DNA of 39,833 nt from a virus, in the IMG/VR virus record IMGVR_UViG_3300030102_004069, positions 1-39,833 of that record. One strand, written 5' to 3'. Numbering within the stretch: the first letter of the stretch is position 1; each line of letters begins with the position of its first letter. This document shows positions 12,754 to 27,885 of this stretch, piece by piece. The notes beneath the pieces were generated by a model that saw nothing but the letters and a program-made list of their open reading frames with translations, ran no database searches and had not been told where the DNA came from. The translations under genes were made by a program, and so were the position numbers.

Positions 12754-13095
12754 TTACAAGGTAATTTTTTTTATAGATACAATAACAGAAGTAGGAATGA
12801 TTGTTGTATTACCAATATTATCAAATGTTGGTTTGTCTTTTGTTTCAATATAATCAGTAAAAATTCTTGTTATACCTTTAGCTTGAGATAGCAAATATCC
12901 TTTAGATACGCAAGTAGGAAGTTTTTGATTTTTTAAATCTTTTGTTGAACTCCAACCTGCATCTCCTTCTATATCCTGCCACTTTATCTCAACGTATGGA
13001 TAATCCAAAATATTATTTCCTAAATTTTTAAAATTAAAATTTAAAATTTTTGATTTTTGAATTTTTTTATTTTTATTTTTTTTCATGTTTTTCAA
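12754..13095 (-). CDS. Small phage protein of unknown function (113 aa)
   Basis: After a Lys/Asn-rich low-complexity N-terminus (1-30) the protein has a compact beta-rich domain. It runs YPYVEIKWQDIEGDAGWSS, LPTCVSKGYLLSQAKG, IFTDYIETKDKP, and TTIIPTSVIVSIKKITL. I recall similar domains in marine phage early regions with no assigned function. There is no ribosome site, and the start could lie further in. Two 27-bp direct repeats lie immediately upstream. Confidence 0.65.
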   Translation of the reverse strand: MKNMKKNKNKKIQKSKILNFNFKNLGNNILDYPYVEIKWQDIEGDAGWSSTKDLKNQKLPTCVSKGYLLSQAKGITRIFTDYIETKDKPTFDNIGNTTIIPTSVIVSIKKITL

Positions 13096-13250: not shown

Positions 13251-13802
13251 CTACTCCGAACTAATCGCTGTTGGCGTGACGTTAATGATATCTTTGGCCT
13301 CTCCGATTTTACCTTCGAGTTCAGATAATCTTTTTTCAAGTTGTTCACGACTCATACCCTCCAATCCAACATGTGTTACTTCTTTCTTATCTACAAACAT
13401 ACCTGCCATTTGGCCAGATCTGTATTCTGCATTTACAGCTACAGCAAATTGTTTTTTATCTTCTGCTTTTTTACTTAATGTTTCAAATCTTTTATATTTT
13501 TTTAATTTGTCCCCTTCATGTTTTTTTAACTCTTGGTTATATTTCATTTCCATATAACGTACTACATGTGGGTTTTTATTTGGATCAGTTAATCGACTTG
13601 CTATCTCAGTTGGCCCTTCAGGTTTATTTGATTGATAACCAGCTCTTCTAGCTGCCTCTACTTTTGTAATCTCACCCCAGTTGCTAACATAAATATCAAC
13701 AAAAGCTTTTTGTTTTAAAGTTAGTTCAGATGTAGATTTTAATGTATTTTTTCTTTTTGTCATTTCTTGACCAGATATTAACATAATTTTTTCCCAATAC
13801 AC
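13251..13802 (-). CDS. terS: Terminase small subunit
   Basis: The region LTLKQKAFVDIYVSNWGEIT, then KVEAARRAGYQ and the ASRLTDPNKNPHVVRYMEM block (about 28-90), is the helix-turn-helix DNA-binding domain of Terminase_2-type small subunits. A helical oligomerisation segment follows, with FAVAVNAEYRSGQMAGMFVD and REQLEKRLSELEGK. TerS recognises the packaging site and loads TerL. Starts at 13802, 13784 and 13760 are possible; the last gives MTKRKNTLKS, the more usual N-terminus. It is 5 kb from terL and directly downstream of the TTCCYAR repeat array. Confidence 0.85.
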   Translation of the reverse strand: MYWEKIMLISGQEMTKRKNTLKSTSELTLKQKAFVDIYVSNWGEITKVEAARRAGYQSNKPEGPTEIASRLTDPNKNPHVVRYMEMKYNQELKKHEGDKLKKYKRFETLSKKAEDKKQFAVAVNAEYRSGQMAGMFVDKKEVTHVGLEGMSREQLEKRLSELEGKIGEAKDIINVTPTAISSE

Positions 13803-13820
13803 TTCTCTACAAATAATATT

Positions 13821-14020
13821 TTAGGAATTTTTTTTGCAGAAAATGCCCCCTCTGTATTTTTTTCCTAAAATTACTAGGAATTTCCCAGTGTTTTCCCAGT
13901 GTTTTCCTAGTGTAAAATGCTCTAGAATTGTTGCATGTCAACGTTTTTCCTAAAACTAGACCTAAAATCTATGTTTTGAAAAAAAATATTTTTTTTATTT
14001 GTAAGAGAACGTACTAGGAA
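13821..14020. repeat. Array of eight TTCCYAR elements upstream of terS
   Basis: TTCC[TC]A[AG] or its complement occurs at 13821-13827 (inverted), 13862-13868, 13874-13880 (inverted), 13882-13888, 13893-13899, 13904-13910, 13947-13953 and 14014-14020 (inverted). The three at 13882, 13893 and 13904 have an exact 11-base period, so they lie on one face of the helix. The array begins 19 bases from the terS start codon, in a 602-base gap without a convincing gene. Such arrays are typical of TerS binding sites (cosB, pac) or replication origins. Confidence 0.75.
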
Positions 14021-14140
14021 AGTGAGCCGAGGGCCGTGAGTCTTTAGTCTAGTCCCCATTACCCACACCCTTTTCAGAAAAATAATTTTTCGCTAGATAA
14101 CTAATATTACGGTAAATTACCAGGTTTCACGGCTCAGGGT

Positions 14141-14169
14141 TTGACAAACACAGCTCAACCAATTATTAC
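14141..14169 (+). promoter_or_regulatory. Rightward sigma70-type promoter in the 14-kb gap
   Basis: The elements are TTGACA (14141-14146), exactly 17 bases, then TATTAC (14164-14169) on the plus strand. It is among the best consensus matches in the window. It points into a 235-base stretch with no open frame before the convergent 142-aa gene. A GTTTCAC motif lies at 14124-14130 just upstream. Confidence 0.6.
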
Positions 14170-14175
14170 TGAATT

Positions 14176-14370
14176 AAGCAATATTTGTTTCATTTATTGC
14201 CTCTTTGTTAGTTTTCTAGGTCACATATTTTTTATTTGTTTCGTATGTGGCCTAGATCTAAAATAAGTTTTGCTTTAATCCTACAATCTGCTATAAGTGA
14301 TTTATGTTTCATATTTCATATATGATTCCTTTCTGCTTGAAGGGTGGCGATTGCTCCCTACCCTTCAAGT
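14176..14370 (+). ncRNA. Candidate structured small RNA
   Basis: From the predicted start point three stem-loops follow. The first is GCAATA/TATTGC at 14178-14200. The second is a 12-bp stem with one G-U pair at 14216-14255 (CTAGGTCACATA with TATGTGGCCTAG). The third is a perfect 10-bp stem at 14336-14369 (CTTGAAGGGT with ACCCTTCAAG). No coding frame on the plus strand explains the region. The last stem lacks a clear T-run, so the end is uncertain. The same stems could instead form in leftward read-through RNA. Confidence 0.4.
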
Positions 14371-14404
14371 TAAAATTCTATTATCCACCATGACTTTATA
14401 AAAA

Positions 14405-14833
14405 TTAAATTAATTTATCGTGATGAACGTAGACATTATCAGCGTCCATGATTTGTCTACGTTTATTCTCAATGTTTCTTCTTAATTCTTTTCTTATATT
14501 AATATCTTCCTCAACCTTTAATCTTTTAAATAATTTATTATATTCATGCCATAAGAAGTGCCTTCTTTTAAATTTAATAAGGCCCTCTTTCAAAGCTTTT
14601 AGATATCTGAATCTTACATTATCTGGTTCCCAACCAGCCCACCAACAAATCTGTTCAAAGTCTTTAGTTGCTGTAATCCAGAAATGAGCATCACATTTAT
14701 TTAAGCTGCTCTTTCGATCTCCTGCTAATAATCGTACATCTTCAAATGCATTTAATATTACATGCCTCCATAACTTCTGTTCATTACAGACATGAGTTTC
14801 ATTTATTACATCCGATGCAATATTAGTGCCCAT
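14405..14833 (-). CDS. Trp-rich conserved-looking phage protein (142 aa)
   Basis: I use the internal ATG at 14833 (MGTNIASDVINETHV) because the upstream start at 14932 would overlap the previous gene by 110 bases, while this one overlaps it by 11. The core has EQKLWRHVILNAFEDVRLLA, DAHFWITATKDFEQICWWAG and EPDNVRFRYLKAL. It is followed by a basic helical tail. From memory this pattern (E-LW-AVL-A, W, DF-IC-AG-P--VR) recurs in early regions of marine phages, with no known function. Confidence 0.72.
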   Translation of the reverse strand: MGTNIASDVINETHVCNEQKLWRHVILNAFEDVRLLAGDRKSSLNKCDAHFWITATKDFEQICWWAGWEPDNVRFRYLKALKEGLIKFKRRHFLWHEYNKLFKRLKVEEDINIRKELRRNIENKRRQIMDADNVYVHHDKLI

Positions 14834-15038
14834 AAGTTTTAACAAGTCTAGAGAGTAGATCACGGTAATGGCCTTTCGAATGTTTAAAATTACAACGATT
14901 GGCGACTTCGTAATGTTCTTGGACATCTTCAATTAATACTGTGATGTCAGCACCTTCAAGATTTTCTTCAAGGATATATTGTTTAATTTCCTTAAAGTCC
15001 TGAGTCATTTCTTTTTTTGTGTAATTATCCATTCTCAT
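14823..15038 (-). CDS. Hypothetical acidic small protein (71 aa)
   Basis: This is a helical, acidic protein (MTQDFKEIKQYILEENLEGA, then DITVLIEDVQEHYEVANRC) with a basic C-terminus (KGHYRDLLSRLVKTYGH). It starts in an ATGA overlap with the stop of the 99-aa gene and overlaps the 142-aa gene by 11 bases. No family is recognised. Confidence 0.7.
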   Translation of the reverse strand: MRMDNYTKKEMTQDFKEIKQYILEENLEGADITVLIEDVQEHYEVANRCNFKHSKGHYRDLLSRLVKTYGH

Positions 15039-26478: not shown

Positions 26479-27885
26479 GTGTACAATTATAAAACAAAAC
26501 CTTTCAAACATCAAAGACAATCATTAATTGAAGGAGCTAAACCCTACAACTTTGCATATTTTATGGAGATGGGAACTGGTAAGACTAAAGTAGCTATTGA
26601 TAATGCAGCATATCTTTATCAAGAACAAAGAATAGATTTTGCTTTTGTTATTGCTCCTAATTCAGTTTATCAAAATTGGAAAAAAGAAATAGACTTTCAT
26701 TGTCCAGAGGAAACAAATATTTACATTTGGAAAGTTACTAAAGATAAGACATTTAAATTAGATCCAAAAAAACTTACATTTATATTAATGAATGTAGAGG
26801 CTTTATCTCATGCGTCTGGTAAAAAATGGTTAGAATATAAGTTATTAAAACATGGTATGAGAAGTATGGTTATATTAGATGAAAGCACATCTATTAAAAA
26901 TCTAAAAGCTTCTAGATCAAAAGCCATAATAAAATTAGGACAATTAGCTAGATATAAAAGAATTTTAACTGGTTCACCAATAACTAAATCACCATTAGAT
27001 TTATTTTCTCAATGTGCATTTTTAGATAAAAAACTTTTAGGTTATGAAAACTTTACTGTCTTCAAATCTAAATATGCTGTTATGTATAGTATTGAAAGAG
27101 GGGGCTATAATATACAAATTCCTAAATACTATGTTAATTTAGAGGAGTTAGAATTTAAATTAAAATCATTTTCTTATCGAGTAAGGAAAAAAGACTGCCT
27201 AGATTTACCAGAAAAAATGTATGTGCAAAGACACATTGAACTACCAGATGAACAACGAATTGCATATGAAAAATTAAAAGCTACCGCACTTATATTGTTA
27301 AAAGATGATGAAGTATCCTATAATAATAAACTAACAGAATTACTTAAATTACAACAAGTAGCAAATGGTTTTGTAAAAACTAATGATGGTAATATCGTTG
27401 ATTTCAAAAGCAATGCAAAATTAAAAGAATTAATGAGCATATTGGAGGAGTCTGAGGATAAGTGTATTATATGGGCTAATTATGTACACAATATAGAAAT
27501 GATTAAGAAAAAGTTAGGAGAGGTATATGGAAAAGATTCGGTGGTTTCGATATACGGAAAAGATTCAGTTGATGTTCGTAACAAAGCTGTTGAAAGTTTT
27601 CAGTCTGATGACAGATGTCGTTTCCTTGTTGGGAACCCTACTGTTGGTGGTTATGGTCTTACCCTTACTGCTGCTAAGTATGTTATATATTTTAGTAATT
27701 CTTACAATTTGGAAGTCCGTCAGCAAAGCGAAGATCGTGCTCATAGATATGGTCAAACTTCTCAAGTCACATATATAGATCTAATTGCAACAGATACAAT
27801 TGATGAAATGGTATTACATAATTTAGAAAATAAAATAGAATTATCTGCTAAGACTCTTGGGGAACAGGTTCAGAAGTGGCTTTAG
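26479..27885 (+). CDS. SNF2-like SF2 helicase/translocase (468 aa)
   Basis: The motifs are FKHQRQSL (Q-like), MEMGTGKT (29-36, Walker A), VIAPNSVYQNW, VILDEST (131-137, in place of DEAH), ILTGSPI (162-168), CIIWANYV, GGYGLTLTAAKYVIYFS and QQSEDRAHRYGQTSQV (motif VI). This is the layout of small SNF2-family translocases in phages, which remodel protein-DNA complexes or aid fork restart. The frame has only a GTG start at 26479, just after an in-frame stop. It is the only long rightward gene. Its end overlaps the convergent nuclease gene by 38 bases. Confidence 0.92.
   Translation: MYNYKTKPFKHQRQSLIEGAKPYNFAYFMEMGTGKTKVAIDNAAYLYQEQRIDFAFVIAPNSVYQNWKKEIDFHCPEETNIYIWKVTKDKTFKLDPKKLTFILMNVEALSHASGKKWLEYKLLKHGMRSMVILDESTSIKNLKASRSKAIIKLGQLARYKRILTGSPITKSPLDLFSQCAFLDKKLLGYENFTVFKSKYAVMYSIERGGYNIQIPKYYVNLEELEFKLKSFSYRVRKKDCLDLPEKMYVQRHIELPDEQRIAYEKLKATALILLKDDEVSYNNKLTELLKLQQVANGFVKTNDGNIVDFKSNAKLKELMSILEESEDKCIIWANYVHNIEMIKKKLGEVYGKDSVVSIYGKDSVDVRNKAVESFQSDDRCRFLVGNPTVGGYGLTLTAAKYVIYFSNSYNLEVRQQSEDRAHRYGQTSQVTYIDLIATDTIDEMVLHNLENKIELSAKTLGEQVQKWL

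Follow-up and report, generated by a model that had tools for sequence, protein, structure and literature searches.

Gene neighbourhood of the element

The DNA analyzed in this work, here called the window, is a virus contig of 39.8 kb with a GC content of 32% and is a fragment of a pelagiphage of the HTVC023P type. Its genes include those for DNA polymerase A, a UvrD-type helicase, an AEP-like primase and both terminase subunits, TerS and TerL. The replication genes reside about 5 kb or more from the element that is described below. The initial annotation had named the gene beside this element terS. This assignment is upheld by homology to phrog_51 (E = 9.5e-7), while the Pfam family Terminase_2 was matched just under the cut-off (E = 6e-5). 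A helix-turn-helix (HTH) is predicted for the window TerS, with helices at residues 16-27, 34-41 and 50-59. A structure search starting from a model of medium confidence (mean pLDDT 69) yielded no significant match in the PDB, and no homologue of TerS was found in bacterial genomes.

The phrog_25889 protein (gp28), whose family has no assigned function, is encoded at 12754-13095 on the minus strand and accompanies the element and terS in clades A to C of the relatives introduced below. It is strongly mosaic, with 27-76% identity between phages whose TerS proteins are 87-97% identical. Further away, an SNF2/helicase-type protein is encoded at 26479-27885 on the plus strand, opposite to its neighbours.

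A cluster of short words upstream of terS

The gap at positions 13785-14404 lacks a convincing gene, just as initially annotated, its open reading frames comprising just 36 and 45 amino acids. It holds nine copies of the word TTCCYAR, compared to a mean of 0.64 in shuffled sequences, none of which reached nine (0 of 5,000). Eight of the copies, in both orientations, fall into 13821-14020; all those listed earlier are present, including three at exact 11-bp steps (13882, 13893 and 13904), and the ninth lies outside this interval at 13791-13797. The distance of 19 bases previously given between array and terS has to be revised, as it was counted from a GTG at 13802 that is probably not the real start; in most relatives TerS starts at the codon equivalent to 13763.

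A genome-wide count against background, proposed as a check by the initial annotation, gave a divided answer. In total the word is not enriched (28 copies in the whole window versus 28.2 expected), whereas its clustering is beyond all shuffles: 200 bases of the gap contain eight copies, and the maximum per 200-bp window was four in 1,000 dinucleotide shuffles of the window. The AT-richness of the window and the absence of an overall enrichment would fit chance AT-rich repeats or an assembly artefact. This explanation can practically be dismissed in view of clustering that exceeds every shuffle, conservation of the array in dozens of independent contigs and a layout that is kept while the words change. 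The second check, conserved spacing in related phages, was borne out in about 70 relatives. The complete genome of the isolate HTVC023P has 40 matches to TTCCYAR, seven of them clustered, and the array homologous to that of the window is its sole phased non-coding array.

Architecture of the element

The TTCCYAR array forms the core of a larger element of about 230 bp (approximately 13790-14021; Table 1) that is bounded by imperfect inverted repeats of about 27 bp and A/T tracts. Read on the terS strand, an arm (14021-13995) is followed by an A/T tract, a word block, the core, three words at 11-bp intervals, one word in inverted orientation, one more word, another A/T tract, the second arm (13816-13790) and finally terS. 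The general layout consists of two words spaced by about 8 bp, followed by a conserved core (about 36 bp) and then three to four words at distances of 10-11 bp. Within the core, TCTAGAGCA is common to the relatives, along with the words and their spacing.

Table 1. Features of the element and the adjoining terS gene in the window
Feature	Position	Strand	Remarks
terS, small terminase subunit	13251..13763	-	likely real start; alternative starts of a longer ORF at 13784 or 13802
right inverted-repeat arm, TTATTTGTAGAGAAGTGTATTGGGAAA on terS strand	13790..13816		contains word copy 13791-13797; inverted repeat, conserved in clade A
word copy TTCCTAA in right A/T tract	13821..13827	-	not conserved in most relatives
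word copy TTCCTAA (TTAGGAA on terS strand), end copy of array	13862..13868	+	conserved
inverted word copy TTCCTAG	13874..13880	-	inverted copy at this place conserved in clade A
helically phased block, three words exactly 11 bp apart (13882, 13893, 13904)	13882..13910	+	spacing conserved in relatives
core spacer with conserved YAAYANTTCTAGAGCA (terS strand)	13911..13946		IHF-like match strong in clade B relatives, weak in window
word copy TTCCTAA	13947..13953	+	pair about 8 bp apart in most relatives; second copy degenerate in window
left A/T tract	13975..13994		
left inverted-repeat arm, TTTCCTAGTACGTTCTCTTACAAATAA on terS strand	13995..14021		contains word copy 14014-14020

In clade A, to which the window belongs, the arms of 74% of 61 elements score above the 99th percentile of shuffled arms (median 18 versus 9.5 in shuffled controls) and show no covariation. 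A base-paired stem between them was considered and rejected, as arms pair no better with their own partner than with swapped ones. Given this and the lack of covariation, the arms more plausibly represent one site present in two inverted copies. The core spacer matches the IHF consensus perfectly in 16 of 56 clade B elements as opposed to 0.8% of shuffles; in clade A and the window the match is weak. An RNA element and a tRNA or att-type site were discarded, because neither an Rfam match nor a tRNA was found.

Upstream of the element, the remaining half of the gap (14022-14404 in the window) is highly variable among relatives and rich in short CTCACGG/CCACGG-like repeats. In the window it contains a hairpin with a perfect 10-bp stem, CTTGAAGGGT...ACCCTTCAAG (14336-14369), after an ORF at 14405-14932. 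The stretch is otherwise variable, and some strong hairpin, differing in sequence, is present in 21 of 68 relatives.

Linkage to terS and conservation across clades

A search with the DNA pattern of the array that ignored terS returned 76 loci. In 68 of them terS is located 125-163 bp downstream on the same strand; three further arrays are cut by the contig end and five loci are chance hits without an array. Every array whose contig reaches terS (68 of 68) therefore has the gene at this distance. The five chance hits had been candidates for satellites carrying the array without terS, and that idea was dropped. Clade A retains the word CTAGGAA together with its spacing. In two loci (L061 and L063) all inner words have become CTAAGAA, and their TerS carries an unusual Glu in the HTH; as a single event, this coincidence is suggestive only.

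Three distant clades, termed B (HTVC027P-like), C (023Pt_psg01-like) and D (DSL-LC04-like), encode TerS proteins that are about 26-36% identical to that of the window. All three possess the same layout with other words (TGTAACA, TGAGACA, TGTCTCA, GGTAGTA, TGGCACA, CGTAAT), and the element is situated within about 1.6 kb of terS despite an inversion of terS in clades B and C and changed positions of other neighbours. Its constant companion is terS, the phrog_25889 gene being also shared in clades A to C. An exonuclease gene flanks the element in clade B and is about 14 kb away from it in the window. The element does not lie at the terS promoter in clades B and C, which eliminates an operator for terS itself.

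The words of clade B were found by an automatic search for phased 7-mers. They comprise TGTAACA with one-step variants, TGAGACA, TGTCTCA, TGTGACT, GGTAGTA, TGGAACA, AAGTAGA, TGTAGAA, TGTGGAA and others, typically spaced by 10, 11, then 43-54 and then 8 bp. On the side of terS that bears the element, 58 of 123 regions reached a phased-repeat score of at least 9, versus none of 111 control regions on its other side. Clade C uses TGGCACA throughout, and clade D has CGTAAT-like words. A subset of clade B (for example L363, L394 and L425) shows a reversed array order, with the pair first, relative to most clade B loci and to its own neighbouring genes, which looks like an inversion of the element, possibly via its own inverted repeats. 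Just upstream of terS in HTVC027P, a 58-aa ORF (L086, 6320-6496) weakly matches the Pfam family ArfA (alternative ribosome rescue), its E value of 4e-4 not reaching the curated cut-off.

The element might also be viewed as a promoter/operator complex, in which a phage activator on the phased words drives the late operon starting beside it. Activator sites in phase are commonly combined with IHF bends, in several clades the element stands ahead of the gene that opens the late block, and in clade A a TATGATATAAC-like stretch precedes terS. However, no -35/-10 pair is conserved across the core, the gene next to the element differs by clade (terS, the phrog_25889 gene or small ORFs), and in the clade B subset just mentioned the array order is reversed with respect to the neighbours. 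We regard a late-gene control region as quite improbable.

Relation between the words and TerS

In clade B, partial Mantel tests in which the rest of TerS was controlled, and which correct for relatedness only roughly, show that word distance tracks TerS segments 41-52 (p = 0.003) and 53-66 (p = 0.007). Among the other seven segments the association was weaker for 111-130 (p = 0.037) and not significant for six. Segment 41-52 is homologous to helix 3 of the HTH predicted for the window protein. The signal of residues 41-66 remains when the exonuclease (r = 0.22) or gp28 (r = 0.32) is controlled. On the clade B tree, built without TerS residues 30-66, all four changes at TerS position 47 fall on branches on which the word also changes (P = 0.0014, uncorrected; the position had been noticed by eye beforehand and the value would fail correction over 85 columns).

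Two other proteins were considered as readers of the word and rejected. The exonuclease also tracks the word in clade B (partial r = 0.37), perhaps as a matter of linkage; it adjoins the element in this clade only. gp28 shows no association in clade B, and L433 and L434 share their word despite unrelated gp28 proteins.

The recognition helix is not sufficient to determine the word, because nearly identical TerS proteins are found with different words (L422/L432 at 98% identity, L433/L438 and L434/L443 at 97%). Clade C has a constant word despite divergence of the helix segment. A related situation is described for SPP1 and SF6, where the pac repeats differ, the TerS proteins are interchangeable and the isolated domain shows no preference for sequence in its binding (PMC4737164). 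It is conceivable, if doubtful, that the packaging address has undergone many rewritings, in each of which all words of the array were replaced in a coordinated manner while the recognition helix of TerS often changed little or not at all. If so, specificity would reside in an array of matching weak sites in phase together with DNA shape rather than in a one-helix code, and lineage-specific words would allow each lineage to pack its own DNA and to ignore that of relatives or satellites.

A probable packaging-recognition site

At this locus a conserved element is present in which helically phased words flank a conserved core within inverted repeats, constantly linked to terS. Judged from sequence and by analogy, it is probably (roughly two chances in three) the site at which TerS of this phage group recognizes DNA for packaging, comparable to P1 pac or lambda cosB. 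The initial annotation had left open a packaging site (cosB or pac) or an origin. The packaging side is favoured by the constant linkage to terS, the architecture resembling P1 pac and cosB, and the link of the words to the recognition-helix region of TerS. The origin is retained as an unlikely alternative.

As a replication origin, the words would be iterons for a phage initiator, the core an IHF-type bend and the A/T tracts an unwinding element. Iteron origins such as lambda ori and that of pSC101 typically combine phased short repeats, an A/T-rich flank and an IHF site, and the element shares the phased repeats and the A/T-rich flank and has a candidate IHF site. That HTVC023P is devoid of any other phased non-coding array would also agree with an origin. 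On the other hand, no initiator gene adjoins the element. The genes constantly next to it are terS and that of phrog_25889, with no replication gene among them, although initiators can act at a distance. Moreover, the divergence of the words tracks the HTH region of TerS, and A/T tracts and inverted repeats are located on both sides of the element. GC skew does not switch at the element; as it follows the coding strand here, it is uninformative on the origin.

If the element serves packaging, TerS oligomers would bind the words, which steps of 10-11 bp would place on one face of the helix. A bend in the core, imposed by IHF or HU or inherent in the DNA because of the A/T tracts, may bring the two word blocks together. 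TerL could then be recruited, cut nearby and package the concatemer toward the late genes.

P1 pac contains seven hexamers in two groups and an IHF site (PMC10028697). The element resembles this system (PacA/PacB, IHF, HU) in its short words in two groups, a candidate IHF site, an extent of about 160-230 bp and a linked small terminase gene (PMC10028697). It differs in being intergenic, enclosed in inverted repeats and equipped with words that vary between close relatives, whereas the P1 site is located within pacA and has Dam sites as its words. In lambda, cosB is arranged as R3-IHF-R2-R1 beside terS (PMC9026076). With this site (R3-I1-R2-R1) the element shares repeated putative TerS sites in mixed orientation, a candidate IHF site and a position in the gap just upstream of terS (PMC9026076). 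Its words, however, are 7-8 bp long instead of 16 bp, more numerous and helically phased, and neither a cosN nor cohesive ends were identified. Direct repeats near terS are also a feature of SPP1/SF6 pac with its boxes A, B and C. SF6 lacks box A although the SPP1 and SF6 TerS proteins are interchangeable (PMC4737164), which parallels the change of words with near-constant TerS seen here. SPP1 pac differs in overlapping the terS start and promoters, and the descriptions consulted mention no helically phased words enclosed by inverted repeats for it.

The means by which small terminases select the DNA of their own phage are still an unsettled question in the field; for several model phages, sequence-specific binding could not be shown (PMC9611059, PMC4737164). 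The phages studied here offer dozens of natural pairs of TerS and site with one layout and different words, some only a handful of TerS residues apart. Because such matched pairs exist, recognition can be tested by setting words against TerS residues across close relatives. Both the host group, SAR11, and the phage group belong to the most abundant in the sea.

Contig ends are two to three times enriched on both sides of the array, with no sharp position or terminus, and most contigs run through it. Related genomes have been closed as circles (PMC9599517). The assemblies of complete relatives are circular and have the site in an internal position, so that headful (pac) packaging or terminal redundancy seems more probable than cohesive ends.
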